From Phycisphaerales bacterium (GTDB lineage: Bacteria > Planctomycetota > Phycisphaerae > Phycisphaerales > UBA1924): a stretch of 64,000 nt of DNA. Under the pieces are notes generated by a model, which did no database searches, was not told where the DNA came from, and was given only the letters and a program-made list of their open reading frames with translations. The stretch covers positions 62,001 through 126,000 of the forward strand of contig JABWBB010000001.1 of the NCBI GenBank assembly GCA_013360675.1. The letters run 5' to 3'. This document shows, one piece after another, positions 5,206 through 19,644 of this stretch. The number at the start of each line of letters is the position of its first letter. Position 1 is the stretch's first letter. The position numbers and the translations under genes are program-made.

Positions 5206-7566
5206 TTACGAAAGTTTGATCAATCGCCGCCCCGCCCATTCGAGTGTGAGCAGCAGCATCAGCAGCACAAAGGCCAGGGGCTTGTCCCACAGTGTTTCGA
5301 TGTCGGGCGCGCCCAGCAGGCGCAGCTCGCGATTGGGCAGCGTGGCCCCCAGCGTGCCCAACTCCTCGGGCTGAAGCATCCGCCCACCCGTGGCCTGCGC
5401 GATCTGGGCCAGCGTGGCATGGTCGGTCTGGGGGATGCGCATCTCGTCGTCGGCAACGATCACCTCAAGCCGGGCGTCCAGATCAACCCCCGCGAGGATC
5501 GGGTCGGCGGAGGTGACCCTGTAGACGCCCGGTCGCGGCGCGATGAACGTGCCCGCGTAGGTCCCTGGGGCGCTCCCGTCGCCGCCCGCCTCGGCCTGCA
5601 GCACGAGCTCGAACTCGTCGCTGCCCGTGCGGTCGGCCGCGACCTCGTCGTCACGCGTGACCGTGACACGGATTGACGCTGGGCGGCGTTCGATGAGTTG
5701 CTGATCAAGCAATCGCACCACCACGCGCACCTGTTGATCGGGCGTCGCTCGCTCGGGCTGAATCTCGGCGATCGCCGCACGTCCGCTGCGTCCCAGGCTG
5801 TCGCGGGCGAGCAGACGCACGAGGGGGATCCAGAACCGCTCGGAGAGCGTTTCGCCCCGGGCGTAGCGATAGCGCCAGATTTCGTCGGTCCCCACATAGA
5901 CCACGCGCCCCGCGCCGTAGCGCATCGTGAGCACGAGCGGCGTGGGGGCGCTGGCGCTCGATCCCACCGCCAGCGCGAGGGTCTCGGCCGTGGGCTTGAG
6001 CGTGCCCGTTTCGATCCGCTGAGCCCAGCGCAGCAGCGGCCAACCGGCCTCGGGCGTCGAGAGAACGCTCGGCCATGGGTCCTGGGCGCTGTCGCCCAGT
6101 TGCATGACACCCAGACGTGCCGCGGCCGGGGCCGGTCGGATCGTCACCGGCTCGAGGTACGCATCGGGCCCCACACCCCCGCCCGAGTTGTGTGTAAGCG
6201 TGAACGGGAGCAGATCGGCCAGTGGAGTCGGGCGCCACGCCCCGGGCGTCGCCCCCGGGCCGCCGATCCACAAAATCCCCGCGCCGCGCTGGGCCACCAG
6301 GTCGCGCATCTGGCGCAGTTGGTCGTCGCTGAAGAGATCGGGGCGCAGATCGCCCAGCACGATGACGTCATTCTCGCTCCACTGCGCCGGGGTGCGGGGG
6401 AGTGAGTCGAGCGTGCGCGTGCCCTCCTGAATGTAGCGGCGCTGCGGGTGCAGCAGCAGCGAGGCCGAACTGATCGAACGCTCGCGCAGGAACAGATTCT
6501 TGAGGTAGCGATATTCCCAGCGCGGATAACCGTCGAAGTGCAGCACGCGGATCGGGCGGTCGGCTGTTTCAAAGGCGATCGCCTGCTCGTTGTTCCGCGC
6601 CGAGAGATCGGGCGTGTCGGTCATGATCCGTACGAGCCAGTTGGTCGGGCCCGCGCCCGCCGGCTTGCCCGTCAGCGTCAGGCGCTGCTCGCGAGCCTCG
6701 CCCGGCTCGACACGGCGCGAATCGATCACACGCCCCGTTCCCGAGTCAATGAGTTCCAGGCGTGCCCCCGGAGCGGGGACGCCCTCGGGCCCGAGCGTGT
6801 CGAGCCGCACATTGACCGGGACGATGTCGTCGAGGAACGCCGCCCGCGGGGCGTCGACCTCGGCCAGGCTCAGATCGGCCAGACCCTGGGCGCTCCCCAG
6901 CGCGACCCCGAAGACGGGGATCTGACGCGATTCGAGTTGGCGCAGCACGCCGCGCGGGATCGCGTCGGCGCTGCGACCATCCGAGAGCACGACCACGCCC
7001 GCCACGGGGCGAGCGGCGACGCGGCGCAGCGCCTGCTCGAGCCCGGCGCCAAGGCGAGTCCGCGTGCCCATCGCTTCGCCCAGGCTCTCTGCGTCGGGCG
7101 GCATGGCGCCGCGCAGGTCGAACGTGCCCGCATCAAAGCCGAGGTAGAGCGTGTGGCGCTCGGTTCCGAGGCCTTCCAGGCCTGCACGGGCACGATCGAA
7201 TGCGTCGATCAGTTGCTCGTTGCGGGTCGTGCCCGTCGGGGCGTCACGCACGCTCAGCGACTCCGAGCGATCGACGAGGAAGACCACCCAGTCCTTCTCG
7301 ACCCGCTCATTGGGGCGGCTGAGTTGCGGGCCCGCCAGCAGCAGCGCCACCAGCGAGAGCGTCGCCGCCCGCACGCCCGCCAGCCACGCCCGCGCGGCCC
7401 GAGGGCCCAGCAGGCGCGAGTAGCTCCACCCCGCCAGGAACGCCGCGCCCAACAGGATGAGCGCCCACGCCCAACCGGGCACCGGGCGTGCAAACTCAAA
7501 GGCGACGTCGCCCGCCTGTGTGCTCAGGTGCCGCAACGACAGGAAACGATCGAGCCATTCGCTCAT
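5206..7566 (-). CDS. Membrane protein with vWA and glutamine-amidotransferase-like domains
   Basis: The 786-residue protein has two N-terminal membrane segments (about 31-48 and 66-82) and a C-terminal one close to the end. Between them is a von Willebrand A domain with an intact metal-site motif DRSES at about 99-103, and further on a class I GATase-like fold (around VIVLGDLRPDLFSDDQ and ILWIGGPGATPG) without an obvious catalytic Cys. This combination is known from aerotolerance-type (Bat) clusters, where vWA proteins pair with DUF58 and MoxR proteins; their exact role is unsettled. The ATG overlaps the upstream stop by four bases and has GGAG nine bases before it, so translation is probably coupled. 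Confidence 0.85.
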   Translation of the reverse strand: MSEWLDRFLSLRHLSTQAGDVAFEFARPVPGWAWALILLGAAFLAGWSYSRLLGPRAARAWLAGVRAATLSLVALLLAGPQLSRPNERVEKDWVVFLVDRSESLSVRDAPTGTTRNEQLIDAFDRARAGLEGLGTERHTLYLGFDAGTFDLRGAMPPDAESLGEAMGTRTRLGAGLEQALRRVAARPVAGVVVLSDGRSADAIPRGVLRQLESRQIPVFGVALGSAQGLADLSLAEVDAPRAAFLDDIVPVNVRLDTLGPEGVPAPGARLELIDSGTGRVIDSRRVEPGEAREQRLTLTGKPAGAGPTNWLVRIMTDTPDLSARNNEQAIAFETADRPIRVLHFDGYPRWEYRYLKNLFLRERSISSASLLLHPQRRYIQEGTRTLDSLPRTPAQWSENDVIVLGDLRPDLFSDDQLRQMRDLVAQRGAGILWIGGPGATPGAWRPTPLADLLPFTLTHNSGGGVGPDAYLEPVTIRPAPAAARLGVMQLGDSAQDPWPSVLSTPEAGWPLLRWAQRIETGTLKPTAETLALAVGSSASAPTPLVLTMRYGAGRVVYVGTDEIWRYRYARGETLSERFWIPLVRLLARDSLGRSGRAAIAEIQPERATPDQQVRVVVRLLDQQLIERRPASIRVTVTRDDEVAADRTGSDEFELVLQAEAGGDGSAPGTYAGTFIAPRPGVYRVTSADPILAGVDLDARLEVIVADDEMRIPQTDHATLAQIAQATGGRMLQPEELGTLGATLPNRELRLLGAPDIETLWDKPLAFVLLMLLLTLEWAGRRLIKLS

Positions 7567-12169: not shown

Positions 12170-12216
12170 TCTGCGTTTCCACACCTGATGTGTGCGAATC
12201 ACGATATCATCCAGCG

Positions 12217-12819
12217 ATGGATGCTCCGGCATTTACGCCGCCGTACCGCAAGCGGCTCCGACGCCGCGAGTCGGAGCAGCGGCCGGACTGTCGCTTCTTG
12301 ACTTTCTCGTGCTTTCGGCGCTGCCCGCTCTTTGGGGTGGTGTCATCCGATCCGGTGCAGACGATCTTCGCCGCGGCCCTCGACGCGGCGCGTCGGCGTC
12401 ACGGGTTCTCGCTCTATGCGTGGGTGGTGATGCCCGAGCACGTCCATCTGCTCGCCAGGCCGCGGGCCGGGCAGGTGTGGGCAACGTTGGCTTCCTCGAT
12501 CAAGAACATCACGGCAAAGCGGGGCCTGGCCCACCTCCGCGCAACGGGCGCTCCGATCCTTGAGGCGATTCGAACCCGCGACGGCGCGGAACGATTCTGG
12601 CAGACCGGCGGCGGGTTCGATCGGACATGCCGGGACGAAGCCGAGTTCTGCCACGCGGTCCGGTACATTCATCGCAACCCGGTCGAACGCGGCTTGGTGA
12701 CCAGGCCCGAGGATTGGCGCAGCAGCAGCGTGCGATGGTGGATGGGGGAACGAAGCAGAGAGATTGAGTGCGACGCCCCGCCGCTGAAGGGGTTGGAGCG
12801 GTGGAAGGGGTATCGATGA
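12217..12819 (+). CDS. REP-associated tyrosine transposase (RAYT, Y1/IS200-like HUH family)
   Basis: The 200-residue protein has the HUH metal-binding motif HVH at 75-77 inside VVMPEHVHLLARP and a probable catalytic tyrosine at Y150 in AVRYIHRNPVERGLV, the signature of RAYT proteins. These nick and join single-stranded DNA at REP hairpins; most are domesticated or act on the REPs around them. The flanking REP copies support this assignment strongly. The start at ATG 12217 is a choice; an in-frame ATG at 12190 adds nine residues, and neither has a strong ribosome site. The last 54 bases of the gene are duplicated, diverged, at 13114-13169. Confidence 0.92.
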   Translation: MDAPAFTPPYRKRLRRRESEQRPDCRFLTFSCFRRCPLFGVVSSDPVQTIFAAALDAARRRHGFSLYAWVVMPEHVHLLARPRAGQVWATLASSIKNITAKRGLAHLRATGAPILEAIRTRDGAERFWQTGGGFDRTCRDEAEFCHAVRYIHRNPVERGLVTRPEDWRSSSVRWWMGERSREIECDAPPLKGLERWKGYR

Positions 12820-14579: not shown

Positions 14580-15818
14580 ATGAGTTCGCACCAGAGCGCG
14601 GTGGCGACACCGCAGGCAGGCAAATCTACCGGGTCCAATCCCGGCACGGGGTCCGCAGGCATGTCAGTTGAATCCGAACCGGTGAGCAGCGCGTCGCATG
14701 TCGGGCACATCTCGATGGCGACCCTGAAAAAGTCAGATCCGCACGCGACGCGGTGGGGCAAGTTCCTGCAGGCGGCGATCAAATTTGAGGCGTCGGACCT
14801 CATCATGAAGGCGGGCTCGAAGCCCGCGATCCGCGTGCGAGGCGCCCTCAAGCCCCTGGACACCGAGGCGGTCTCGGCCGACGAGTTCTGGAAGATCGCC
14901 CAGCACGTGCTCTCCGCCGAGCAGATCGAGGATCTGCACAAGTTCGGCTCGGTCGACTTCGCCTACGACTATGACGACCACCATCGTTTCCGCGTGAACC
15001 TGTTCCAGGCCCGCGGCAAGCTGAGCGTCGCCGCCCGCCTCATCACCAGCAAGATCCGGCGATTCGAGGAGTTGTACCTCCCCGAGATCATGTCGGAAGT
15101 GGCGATGCAGCCCAACGGGATCGTGCTGCTGAGCGGCGTGACGGGCTCGGGCAAGTCGACGACCATCGCCGCCATGCTCGATTACGTGAACGAACGCAAG
15201 CCCGTGCACATCGTGACGATCGAAGACCCGATCGAGTACATCTTCACGGACAAGAAGGCGACGATCAACCAGCGCGAGATCGGGATCGACTGCCTCGACT
15301 TCAAGATCGCGCTTCGCGCCCTGGTCCGCGAAAACCCCGACGTGGTGCTGGTGGGTGAGATGCGCGACAACGAGACCTTCCACGCGGCCCTCCATGCCGC
15401 CGAGACGGGCCACCTGGTCTACGGCACCATCCACGCCTCGAGCACGACGCAGACCTTCAGCCGCATCTACGGCCTGTTCGAGGCCGAGGAAGTCCCGCAG
15501 GTCCGCAAGATCCTGGGCTATCAGATGCGGGCGTTCGTCTACCAGAAACTGCTCCCGACGCTGCACCCCGAGATCCACCGCATCCCGGCGATCGAGGTCC
15601 TGATCAACAACAGCGTCGTGCGCAAGCACATCCTCGAGGCCCGCGAAGGCGAGCTGCGCGAGTACATCAAGACGATCGAGGCCCGCCAGAGCGGCATGAT
15701 CGACTTCAACGAGGCCCTGGTGCAGCTCGTCGAGAAGGAATACATCCACATGCGCGTCGCCGAGGAGGCCTCTCCCAACGTCGACGAGTTCCGCATGATG
15801 ATCAAGAAGATCAAGTAA
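14580..15818 (+). CDS. pilT: PilT-type twitching/retraction ATPase
   Basis: PilT-family hexameric ATPases pull back type IV pili. All key motifs are intact: Walker A GVTGSGKS (about 186-193), the Asp box IEDPIEY, Walker B VVLVGE with MRDNET (about 255-266) and the His box YGTIHASS (H285). The N-terminal 55 residues are an extra low-complexity leader compared with usual PilT length, and internal ATGs at 14661 and 14715 could be the true start. Downstream lie a degenerate PilB-like protein and a CvpA-like protein on the same strand, without other pilus genes in the window. Retraction of a pilus encoded elsewhere is likely; a special role with its neighbours is possible. Confidence 0.9.
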   Translation: MSSHQSAVATPQAGKSTGSNPGTGSAGMSVESEPVSSASHVGHISMATLKKSDPHATRWGKFLQAAIKFEASDLIMKAGSKPAIRVRGALKPLDTEAVSADEFWKIAQHVLSAEQIEDLHKFGSVDFAYDYDDHHRFRVNLFQARGKLSVAARLITSKIRRFEELYLPEIMSEVAMQPNGIVLLSGVTGSGKSTTIAAMLDYVNERKPVHIVTIEDPIEYIFTDKKATINQREIGIDCLDFKIALRALVRENPDVVLVGEMRDNETFHAALHAAETGHLVYGTIHASSTTQTFSRIYGLFEAEEVPQVRKILGYQMRAFVYQKLLPTLHPEIHRIPAIEVLINNSVVRKHILEAREGELREYIKTIEARQSGMIDFNEALVQLVEKEYIHMRVAEEASPNVDEFRMMIKKIK

Positions 15819-15857
15819 GCCGCCCCCGGGCCTCTTCTTTTCCCCAAGGTCGTGACA

Positions 15858-15876
15858 CGCCCGCCCTCCGCGGGCG
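15858..15876. other. GC hairpin downstream of pilT
   Basis: Seven-base arms CGCCCGC/GCGGGCG with loop CCTCC, 40 bases after the pilT stop. It has no T tract, so it may slow or process the transcript rather than end it. Confidence 0.35.
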
Positions 15877-16041
15877 GTATACGGGGCATGGCCCGGGTCC
15901 CCGGGCTTCGTGGGGCGTCTCCGCGGGGGGGCGACGGGCCCACGGCGCGAAGGGATCGGATCGGATACGCTCTCTGGCCCTACGCCGCGGGAGTGCGTGC
16001 GATTCGGGGTTCGTCAGGTCGTCAGCGAGAGGAACGCGCAC

Positions 16042-17772
16042 GTGCATTATGAGATTGCCGCAACGGGCATGACGTGGACGCTGGGCGAGGCGATGATGCT
16101 CGTCTCGTGGTGGAAGCCGCTGCTGCTGCTGATCCCGTTCATGCCGTGGGCATGGCTGGTGTCGGCGGTCTTCGACAAGCACGCCGGGAAGTACCACCTG
16201 CCCAGACCCAACTGGAACCTGCTGCACCTGGGCTGTGGCCTGGTGGCCCTCGCCCTGGCGATCATTCTTCCCATCGAAGGCATCGCCGCGATTTTCGTGT
16301 CCTTGGCGGCGATCACGGCGGTGCTGGCCATCGATGTGGCCATCTTCGTCATGGTGACCAACCGCGACGAGCGCGTCCCCGAGGCCTTCCGCCTCAAGCT
16401 CGATTTCTCCTCGTTGGGCAAGGCCCGCGCGGATCGCGCCGCGGCCAAGCGCCAGGGCAAGGTCGAACTGGTCCTGCGTCGCCCCGACAAGTCCGTCGTT
16501 GCCGTCCCCTCGATCGACGCCCCCGAGTTCCCCGTGCGAGTGGCGGCCGAGTCGATCATTCTCAAGGCCATCGATAATCGGGCCGCGCAGATCGACATCG
16601 CGCCCACCGGCAAGGACAACCAGTACGCGGTGACGTATCTCGTCGATTCGCTGCGCACCCCGCCCGAGGCCATGCCCGGTGCCGACGCCATCAAGGTCAT
16701 GGACTATTGGAAAGGCGTGGCGAAGCTCGACCTCCAGGATCGGCGTCGTCGCCTGGTCAACGATGTGACCGTCGAGCGCGGCGATTCGAAGAAGAAGATC
16801 CGCATCACCTCGATGGGGTCACAGGCGGGCATGCGCCTCAGCCTTCTGATCGAGCCCGAGACCCAGGTCCGGCGCAAGCCCGCGGATCTGGGCCTGCTCG
16901 AGCCCCAGATGGACGAACTCCGCAAGCTGGTGGAAGAAGAGGCCGGCGTGGTGCTGCTGGCGGCACCGCCCGATGCCGGTCGGACCACCACTCTCTACAC
17001 CATCGTCAAGATGCACGATGCCTACACCAAGAACGTGCAGGTCGTCGAGACCGAACCCCAGGACATGCTCGAGGGAGCCAAGCAGAACAAGTGGGAGCAG
17101 CAGGCCGACGGGCCCGAGTTCTCCACCTTCGTGAGGTCGCTGCTCCGCCGCGATCCCGACGTGCTGGGCGTGGCGGATCTCGTCGACGCGAACACCGCCA
17201 AGGAAATCGCCAAGGCCGACCACGAGCGCACCCGTGTCTACGTCTCGGTCCGCGGCGAGTCAGTTCTCTCCGTGATCCAGCAGTGGCTCAAGGTGGTGGG
17301 GGATACCGAGATCGCCTCCAAGTGCCTCTACGGCGTCGTCGCCCAGAAGCTCCTGAGGAAGCTCTGCACCAACTGCAAGGTTGCCTACCAGCCCTCCCCG
17401 GACATGGTCAAGCGACTGGGCCTTCCGCCCGATCGCGTCAAGCAGCTCTTCAAGCGCGGCGGGCAGGTCCTCATCAAGAACAAGCCCGAGATCTGCCCGC
17501 TCTGCCAGGGCACCGGGTACCTCGGACTCGAGGGCATCTTCGAGATCTTCACCATCGGCCCGGCCGAGCGCACGCTCCTGGCCAAGGGCGACCTCAACGC
17601 CATCAAGCTCGAGTACAAGAAGCGCAATCTGCCCACAATCCAGCAGAGCGCGATCAAAAAGGCTATCGACGGCATCACCAGCGTCGAGGAGGTCATGCGC
17701 GTCACCGTCGAGGCACGCCCCGAGGCTCAGCCCGGGCAGGGCGGCAAGACCGAGGCGGGCGCGACGGCGTAG
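16042..17772 (+). CDS. Membrane-anchored PilB/GspE-like protein with degenerate ATPase motifs
   Basis: The C-terminal half (about 285-565) follows the type II/IV secretion ATPase fold, including the zinc-binding four cysteines C442, C445, C485 and C488 before LGLEGIFEIF. Unlike real PilB/GspE proteins, the Walker A region reads APPDAGRTT (308-316) with Arg where the catalytic Lys should be, Walker B reads VLGVAD with Asp for Glu and no Arg after it, and the His box is lost (YVSVRGES). The N-terminus has three hydrophobic segments (about 22-44, 62-80, 81-106), which is unusual for this cytoplasmic family. I chose GTG 16042 because GAGAGGA precedes it and the open frame before it is low-quality. 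It is probably a non-catalytic or altered paralogue anchored in the inner membrane, encoded between pilT and a CvpA-like gene. Confidence 0.85.
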   Translation: MHYEIAATGMTWTLGEAMMLVSWWKPLLLLIPFMPWAWLVSAVFDKHAGKYHLPRPNWNLLHLGCGLVALALAIILPIEGIAAIFVSLAAITAVLAIDVAIFVMVTNRDERVPEAFRLKLDFSSLGKARADRAAAKRQGKVELVLRRPDKSVVAVPSIDAPEFPVRVAAESIILKAIDNRAAQIDIAPTGKDNQYAVTYLVDSLRTPPEAMPGADAIKVMDYWKGVAKLDLQDRRRRLVNDVTVERGDSKKKIRITSMGSQAGMRLSLLIEPETQVRRKPADLGLLEPQMDELRKLVEEEAGVVLLAAPPDAGRTTTLYTIVKMHDAYTKNVQVVETEPQDMLEGAKQNKWEQQADGPEFSTFVRSLLRRDPDVLGVADLVDANTAKEIAKADHERTRVYVSVRGESVLSVIQQWLKVVGDTEIASKCLYGVVAQKLLRKLCTNCKVAYQPSPDMVKRLGLPPDRVKQLFKRGGQVLIKNKPEICPLCQGTGYLGLEGIFEIFTIGPAERTLLAKGDLNAIKLEYKKRNLPTIQQSAIKKAIDGITSVEEVMRVTVEARPEAQPGQGGKTEAGATA

Positions 17773-17817
17773 TTCGATCCGGGTCTTTCGGAAGGCCCAT
17801 GCGCGGGAGTCATTGAC

Positions 17818-19644
17818 ATGATCATGAGCGTCGTCGGCATCTTCATCGTTCTCGTGGCGGGCCTGCTCGTCTGGCTCTCGCGCGGGTTCTTCTCCGCGTT
17901 CCTGCACCTGCTCTGCACGCTGATCGCCGGCGCCATCGCCTTCGCCGCATGGGAGCCCCTGGCCTACATCCTGCTCGACAAGGGCGGCACGGGCTGGCTG
18001 GGCTCGGCCGCCTGGGGGCTGGCGCTGGCTCTTCCCTTCGCCGTCGCGCTCATCCTGCTGCGCGTCATCGTCGACCAGACCATCCGCGCCAACGTGCAGT
18101 TCGTGCACGCGGTCGACATGGTCGGCGGCGCGATCTGCGGCTCGGCGGCCGGTCTCATCGCCGCGGGCATCATGATGATCAGCGTCGGCTCGCTGCGTCT
18201 CCCCACCGACTTCTGGAGCGGCACGCGCCTGGCCTACGGCACCAACGGATCGATCGAGCACGATTCGAGCGTCTTCTTCCCCGCCGACAAGATCGTCTCC
18301 GCCCTCTACGGGCATCTCTCGCTGACGACCTTCAGCATCGGGACGCCCCTGGCGGTTCAGTACCCCGATCTCGCCGACGTGCCCACGTCGCTCCGCATGA
18401 GCTTCGGTGAGGGACGCGCCCGCAACACGATCCGCCCCGCCGACTTCCAGGTCCGCGGGCGTTTCACGGTTGGCGGTTCGGGGCAGACCCTCGATTCACT
18501 CCTCTCCGATCGCTGGGTCCCCGCGCCCCAGAAGGCGACCGATGTAAATGGTGAGAGGTATCCTGCCAACTCGCGCATCGAGGGATTTGTCATCACCTTT
18601 AATGCCGGCGCGAAGGAAAAGGGCGATGGCAAGGTCGCTATCGGCGGTTCGCAGATCCGCCTGGTCATCGCGAAACCCGATCCGAGCGATGCCGAGCGAT
18701 TCGAAGACCCGATGGTGGTCTACCCCATCGCCGCCTCCTGCCAGGCCGAGGCCGCCACGCCCCAGGCCGCGCGCTTCCGCTTTGACGGGCGCGATATCTT
18801 CCTGGCGGGCGTGGGCGGGGCGAGCGAGGCGACCTTCGCCTTTGAGTTCGTGGTCCCCGCCGACTACGTCCCCGTCTCGCTTTATGTGAAGAATGTTCGC
18901 CACGACGTGATCGGTGGCGCGGGTGGCGCGCCCCGCAAGATGGCGACCGCCGCCGAACGCGACATGGCGATTGCCACGGGCGCTTTGATCGGCGGGAGTT
19001 TCAGCCCCGGCGCCACGGCGGGGGGAGCGCCCGGGGGCGATCTCGACAGCAGCCAGGCCGAGCGTCTGGGCTCGGGCACCGCGTGGCGTGAAGCGCCCCC
19101 CGGCCTGGTCTTCTCCAACCTCCTTCCCTTCACCATCCAGCTGGGGACCCAGGGCGGGCTCGAGGTCGACACCGACAACGGGAACATCATCACTTACGGC
19201 GAGCACACGTTCGATCCCGAGCAGATCAAGAACACGCGCGGCATCGATCGCAAGCTCCAGGTGCAGAAACTCATGACCACCGCCGACACGTCGACGGTCT
19301 TCGTCGATGTGAGCCTCGGGCAGCGGATGAGCCTACTCGGGCAGGCCGCGGCCGCGGTCGATCAGGTCGTCCCGCCGCTGCTGCGCGATATCAACGGGCA
19401 GATCTATGAGCCCATCGGCTTCATCTACGAGGACGCGACCAAGCTCGTCGTTCGGTTCAAGCCGGGCGAGCCGATCCGGTCGCTCTCGCAGTTGGCCCAG
19501 TCCGGCGCGAGCATCACGCGCAGCCGCAGCGATCAGAAGCTCAAGCTGATCTTCCGCATCAACAAGGGCGTGCCGCTGCAGTCGTTTGGTCTTGGAAACA
19601 AGATCCTCGCCGAGTTCAACCCGCCTTACCTGCCCAACAACTGA
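17818..19644 (+). CDS. CvpA-like membrane protein with large extracytoplasmic domain
   Basis: The first 130 residues contain about four hydrophobic helices with small-residue spacing (SRGFFSAFLHLLCTLIAGAIAFAAW; AVDMVGGAICGSAAGLIAAGIMMISVGSL), the look of CvpA/colicin V production proteins. The remaining 470 residues are soluble, beta-rich and without a family I recognise; they contain a Gly-rich linker around residue 390. The gene starts 45 bases after the PilB-like gene and probably shares its transcript. CvpA-type proteins have been tied to envelope stress and secretion, but the exact job is unknown, and the large C-terminal domain is not part of the standard family. Confidence 0.75.
   Translation: MIMSVVGIFIVLVAGLLVWLSRGFFSAFLHLLCTLIAGAIAFAAWEPLAYILLDKGGTGWLGSAAWGLALALPFAVALILLRVIVDQTIRANVQFVHAVDMVGGAICGSAAGLIAAGIMMISVGSLRLPTDFWSGTRLAYGTNGSIEHDSSVFFPADKIVSALYGHLSLTTFSIGTPLAVQYPDLADVPTSLRMSFGEGRARNTIRPADFQVRGRFTVGGSGQTLDSLLSDRWVPAPQKATDVNGERYPANSRIEGFVITFNAGAKEKGDGKVAIGGSQIRLVIAKPDPSDAERFEDPMVVYPIAASCQAEAATPQAARFRFDGRDIFLAGVGGASEATFAFEFVVPADYVPVSLYVKNVRHDVIGGAGGAPRKMATAAERDMAIATGALIGGSFSPGATAGGAPGGDLDSSQAERLGSGTAWREAPPGLVFSNLLPFTIQLGTQGGLEVDTDNGNIITYGEHTFDPEQIKNTRGIDRKLQVQKLMTTADTSTVFVDVSLGQRMSLLGQAAAAVDQVVPPLLRDINGQIYEPIGFIYEDATKLVVRFKPGEPIRSLSQLAQSGASITRSRSDQKLKLIFRINKGVPLQSFGLGNKILAEFNPPYLPNN

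Follow-up and report, generated by a model that had tools for sequence, protein, structure and literature searches.

What is the role of a catalytically complete PilT, a retraction ATPase, when its neighbours are a PilB-like protein whose ATP site is broken and a protein resembling CvpA, and when pilus genes are missing from the surroundings? These three genes (which we will call the triad; Table 1) lie in a stretch of 64,000 nucleotides from a Phycisphaerales genome, to which we refer as the window. Searches for PilC, pilins (N_methyl) and PilM across the window gave no match, as the preliminary description of the locus had stated, i.e. the nearby pilin, PilC or PilM gene by which a type IV pilus locus is recognised is absent, and the closest pilin-type match on the contig is found about 65 kb downstream of the triad. 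The locus suggests a cell-envelope machine of a kind not yet described, more than a normal pilus. The protein families of the parts are known; what seems new to us is the combination of the genes and the predicted class-wide catalytic death of one of the products. Pseudo-enzymes of the PilB/GspE family retained across a whole bacterial class appear to be undescribed, and among the open-access papers searched we found none usefully joining planctomycetes, CvpA and PilT. The envelope and surface structures of planctomycetes are poorly understood, and the triad represents a gene set that occurs almost throughout the class but has no assigned role.

Table 1. Features of the triad locus, in positions of the window.
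Feature	Position	Strand	Basis
PilT of the triad clade, 412 aa	14580..15818	+	NCBIfam TIGR01420 above cut-off, alignment, tree
Gap between PilT and pseudo-ATPase, 223 bases	15819..16041	+	Without terminator or promoter match above chance
Membrane-anchored PilB/GspE-like pseudo-ATPase	16042..17772	+	T2SSE, fold, broken motifs, class-wide occurrence
N-terminal three-helix transmembrane region of the pseudo-ATPase	16111..16365	+	Model helices
Degraded Walker A region, around LLAAPPDAGRTTTLY	16949..17002	+	Alignment; Lys absent in all compared loci
Four-cysteine zinc-type module (CTNC ... CPLC), family-invariant	17365..17511	+	Alignments
CvpA-like protein, 608 aa, with four transmembrane helices and two predicted periplasmic beta domains	17818..19644	+	Colicin_V, model, adjacency

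The PilT of the window is intact, as had been claimed: it scores 379.4 bits against TIGR01420 (PilT/PilU; cut-off 319.1) and every catalytic motif is preserved in the alignment, namely Walker A (GVTGSGKST), the Asp box (IEDPIEY), Walker B (VGEMRD) and the His box (TGHLVYGTIH). The full catalytic set and the above-cut-off score are shared with ordinary PilT/PilU retraction ATPases, but the protein belongs to a separate clade, linked to the PilB-like/CvpA pair, and its AIRNLIRE-type region is altered to VVRKHILE. Across the triad PilT clade ILEGRE-like residues replace this region, and the alteration may reflect an output other than pilus retraction. In the PilT tree the window protein is grouped apart from the PilT of its own genome's pilus locus, and the triad PilTs, including the unlinked copies of family f47, separate from ordinary PilTs with modest support for the dividing branch (87/73). 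When the locus was compared with defence proteins, only PilT gave a match, a weak one to mad8 (29 bits) that reflects cross-matching between ATPases, and since there was only this match we dropped an anti-phage reading.

The gene for the PilB-like protein starts at GTG 16042 or ATG 16069 and ends at 17772. Its product matches T2SSE (PF00437) along residues 168-553 with 126 bits against a cut-off of 24.9, and with 137.5 bits stays under the cut-off of the PilB equivalog TIGR02538 (675.65). The predicted structure (mean pLDDT 88.5) contains three long N-terminal helices followed by a PilB-type core, of which residues 153-547 can be compared to Thermus PilF with Z 37.1 and rmsd 3.6 over 381 residues. 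Numbered from ATG 16069, the model helices comprise residues 15-21, 24-41, 46-66 and 72-99, the last three being the long ones. Both the PilB/GspE fold and the N-terminal membrane domain that had been proposed for this protein are thus upheld. The N2D and C-terminal ATPase fold and the four-cysteine module are common to it and to PilB, PilF and GspE, but no MshEN-type N-terminal domain was matched and three transmembrane helices are found there; unlike these proteins it also lacks the Walker A lysine and the His box, has a CvpA partner and has no pilus genes nearby.

How badly is the ATP site damaged? Aligned with nine intact PilB/GspE paralogues from the same genome, the window protein has APPDAGRTTT for the GPTGSGKTTT of Walker A, ADLVD for the GEIRD motif and ERTRV for the TGHLV of the His box, and the intact set of Walker A, Walker B, Asp and His boxes is not present; the motifs are broken, just as the preliminary description had it. 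None of the 54 PilB-like loci compared in the order has the Walker A lysine, nor has any of the 24 class-level loci examined. Loss of ATP hydrolysis, both in the window and in the class, is therefore strongly predicted from the motifs. Since the Asp-box glutamate, together with the four cysteines, is invariant in a 37-row alignment and the Walker B glutamate is retained by many close relatives, nucleotide binding by the class protein, and even weak activity, is possible.

In our sample of 120 genomes of the class, the PilB-like protein was found by profile search as a single copy in 115, belonging to 24 families. The preliminary description had allowed that the gene set might occur only in the genome of the window, or that the CvpA-like gene might never keep its neighbours elsewhere. 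Neither is the case: the set recurs across the class with its order conserved, and in all 59 genomes of the order-level sample in which the PilB-like protein was found the next gene downstream, in the same orientation, is the CvpA-like gene, and the matched regions of the two are a median of 93 bases apart. PilT is at most 1 kb upstream of the PilB-like gene in 44 of these 59; in 2 more it is farther off on that contig, and in the remaining 13 it is located elsewhere, missing or interrupted by a contig end, a pattern of gene order that the class-level loci repeat. In L147, L149 and L169 the PilB-like/CvpA pair is present while the best-matching PilT falls within the ordinary pilus clade, and a triad-type PilT is apparently absent. 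Judging by the invariable adjacency, and by a PilT that is unlinked or missing in several genomes, the invariant core is the PilB-like/CvpA pair, with PilT as a frequent third part. The pairing of a retraction motor with a pseudo-ATPase, by which the locus had originally been interpreted, is therefore not the core of the unit. One genome of the order (G060; L207, G060:C162) has lost the opposite part to L147, L149 and L169, as it contains a triad-clade PilT and gives no PilB-like or CvpA-like match.

The genome of the window contains a single match to the CvpA-like protein, and around its nine ordinary PilB/GspE loci no CvpA match was found within the stretches examined, up to 1.5 kb on each side. 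Among the congeners L103, L105, L106 and L107, simple Nei-Gojobori estimates of dN/dS are 0.07-0.18 for the PilB-like gene, 0.04-0.10 for PilT (the L003/L004 pair was left out here, no PilT having been found in its loci) and 0.08-0.19 for the CvpA-like gene. The PilB-like protein of the class is a conserved pseudo-ATPase under purifying selection. A scan of genome contigs gave matches in four Phycisphaerales/Phycisphaeraceae MAGs only.

Is the PilB-like family then a family of dead enzymes? Primarily it does not seem to be, since the same locus appears to be live outside the class. Six loci from family f47 and three from f54 encode the same N-terminal membrane region followed by complete Walker A, Asp, Walker B and His boxes, the motif set also being intact in the live orthologues listed as L137-L143, L171 and L172, and one f68 genome also has a live version with this membrane region, which is homologous between live and dead proteins. 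All three families have a CvpA-type gene next downstream, namely in the f54 loci, in the f68 locus and, for f47, in five loci out of six. PilT is near the PilB-like gene in families f54, f68, f71, f88 and f97, and in f47 it is unlinked in all but one of the six loci. In f71 the order is hisF, PilT, PilB-like, CvpA-like and the N-terminus of the PilB-like protein has diverged, while f88 and f97 have dead versions.

When the ATPase core was analysed by maximum likelihood, the dead proteins of the class formed one clade of the unrooted tree (100/98) and those of f88 and f97 another (100/99); the two are separate yet adjoining, on long branches, and are compatible with either one or two losses of catalysis. 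Ordinary PilBs group in one clade (100/100), one long FHA-fused paralogue excepted, and the live membrane-anchored versions are placed between the dead and the ordinary clades. The genome of the window itself encodes a PilB/GspE-type ATPase (L013, G000:C26:25337-26449) that appears to carry an FHA domain at its N-terminus; its motifs are intact and its branch in the tree is long. The simplest history would be that an ancestral live membrane-anchored ATPase unit lost catalysis early in the class and also in f88 and f97, the direction from live to dead being suggested by the live state common to all ordinary PilBs. By this comparison the triad is a vertically inherited planctomycete locus. Having live and dead versions of one membrane-anchored motor in related lineages means that roles of such rings beyond ATP hydrolysis can be studied.

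The third protein of the window matches Colicin_V (PF02674) with 22 bits, below the cut-off of 29.3; 26 of 27 homologues match the family (E up to 0.1), and several of the short orthologues found at the same position in other families are above the cut-off. In the model (pLDDT 88) a four-helix N-terminal domain is followed by two beta domains, in keeping with the description as a CvpA-like protein with a large unknown domain. The four-helix membrane domain is shared with CvpA/Colicin_V, from which the protein differs by about 480 additional residues, forming the two beta domains, with no close solved relative. Fold searches gave weak Ig-like matches only (YcdA, the best, with Z 6.4, YjhA with 5.5 and a Staphylococcus lipoprotein with 5.2), and a profile search among solved structures found no CvpA-like protein. 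Foldseek matched a viral DUF4352 protein (E 3.4e-4), an assignment that we dropped as Pfam gave no DUF4352 match.

Positively charged residues are found in the loops between helices 1 and 2 (R22) and between helices 3 and 4 (R82 and R90). Together with the finding that relatives also encode the C-terminal domain by itself, behind a lipobox-like leader, this suggests an N-out, C-out topology with the 480-residue tail in the periplasm, and it would follow that the core of the PilB-like protein is cytoplasmic, behind its three helices. The stand-alone copies of the C-terminal beta domain are found in L238, L239 (1644-2366) and L241 (1692-2474), the latter two with the lipobox-like leaders, and in family f4 the CvpA-like protein lacks this domain, which is encoded separately. 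Enteric CvpA is required for resistance to deoxycholate, an envelope-type phenotype (PMC6705877), and by analogy this fits an envelope role here, without proving it. CvpA is widespread but, apart from its requirement for bile-salt resistance in enteric bacteria, little understood, and the triad provides it with a constant genomic partner.

How could these parts work together? Secretion-ATPase rings work against an inner-membrane unit in type IV pili and type II secretion, and we assume a likeness of the triad to these motor complexes, from which it differs in the absence of PilC, PilM and pilins from the locus, in a self-anchored PilB-like ring and in the death of one of the two ATPases. We infer a hexamer forming a membrane ring, coupled to CvpA, with PilT as motor or gate. 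Subunits of the PilB-like protein would assemble into a PilB-type hexameric ring at the cytoplasmic face of the inner membrane, each anchored by three helices of its own, which would replace the docking to PilM/PilN or PilC of ordinary pili. A permanent coupling would join the ring to the CvpA-like protein, which would cross the membrane with its four helices and extend its beta domains into the periplasm. Where the ATPase is live, as in other families, the ring may be the motor, while in the class it may have become a dock or transmission piece without catalysis; in genomes that have the dedicated PilT, this protein could supply ATP-driven movement or gating, either by stacking on the PilB-like ring or by acting on the same membrane unit. 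The output would be force or a conformational signal delivered to the periplasm, with no pilus of its own. PilT cannot be an obligatory driver everywhere, since the triad-clade PilT is unlinked in several genomes and was not found in some few that retain both partners. We tentatively prefer this model, which combines a membrane-fixed ring with a periplasmic arm of CvpA type and lets a dedicated PilT drive or gate them, with a probability that we put clearly below even. Its more specific form, a planctomycete trans-envelope machine with a pilus-type ring welded into the membrane, a CvpA arm and no pilus, in which the ring of the class has died and PilT is left as the sole motor, seems to us somewhat unlikely.

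Could the triad serve pili encoded elsewhere? It might tune type IV pili or type II secretion, the platform, the pilins and PilM coming from other loci, with the dead ring competing with PilB or braking it and PilT acting as a second retraction motor. PilC-type (T2SSF) platforms are indeed present elsewhere in 119 of the 120 class genomes, and the genome of the window alone has 14 T2SSF matches, 46 pilin-type matches and about nine ordinary PilB/GspE homologues. PilU is an accessory, PilT-dependent motor in other bacteria, according to a study cited in PMC11656802. Among the 120 class genomes we looked for one that combines the locus with an absence of PilC-type genes and found none; T2SSF is missing from a single genome, which is 76% complete and has no pseudo-ATPase either. 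However, the constant partner is CvpA rather than a pilus gene, the PilB-like protein is predicted to be anchored in the membrane by itself and no pilus gene is near; a pilus accessory seems to us possible but rather unlikely.

Another role would be in signalling or regulation, with a nucleotide-free PilB-like ring sensing the state of the envelope or the surface and signalling via CvpA or PilT without exerting force. The envelope-type phenotype of enteric CvpA (PMC6705877) would agree with this, and there is a precedent in Myxococcus xanthus, where, according to two papers (PMC5544727; PMC11656802), PilB affects exopolysaccharide production and a Walker A mutant alters this output while abolishing motility. 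Pfam searches, however, found no signalling domain in PilT, the PilB-like or the CvpA-like protein, and the live versions in other families suggest the origin as a motor, so that we regard a purely regulatory ring as quite unlikely. That the PilB-like and CvpA-like proteins make up a static membrane scaffold with PilT as a mere historical neighbour is, in our view, very unlikely. In its favour, several relatives and all but one of the six f47 loci have PilT unlinked, and searches of a few genomes did not find it; against it, PilT is close in 44 of the 59 relatives and in families f54, f68, f71, f88 and f97, and the triad PilTs form a clade of their own.

The spacing of the genes also bears on how the locus had been described. 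The PilB-like gene does not follow PilT directly, as had been stated, since 223-250 bases, depending on the start codon, separate it from the PilT stop; promoter and terminator scans of 15819..16041 gave no match above chance. Genes are packed more tightly in related genomes than in the window, and in L051 hisF and PilT overlap. Two genes upstream of PilT, the window encodes an IS200/Y1-type transposase (12190-12819), which is barely above the Pfam cut-off. The hisF gene lies just upstream of PilT in many loci of the class and also in f54, f71, f88 and f97, both in live and in dead loci (including L205 and L206). It directly precedes the triad PilT in L051 (1979-2824), L143, L145, L146, L205 and L206 and is a useful synteny anchor. 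In L205, from f71, the PilT frame (6056-7189) is split in two by a stop codon, which represents either a sequencing error or a decaying gene.
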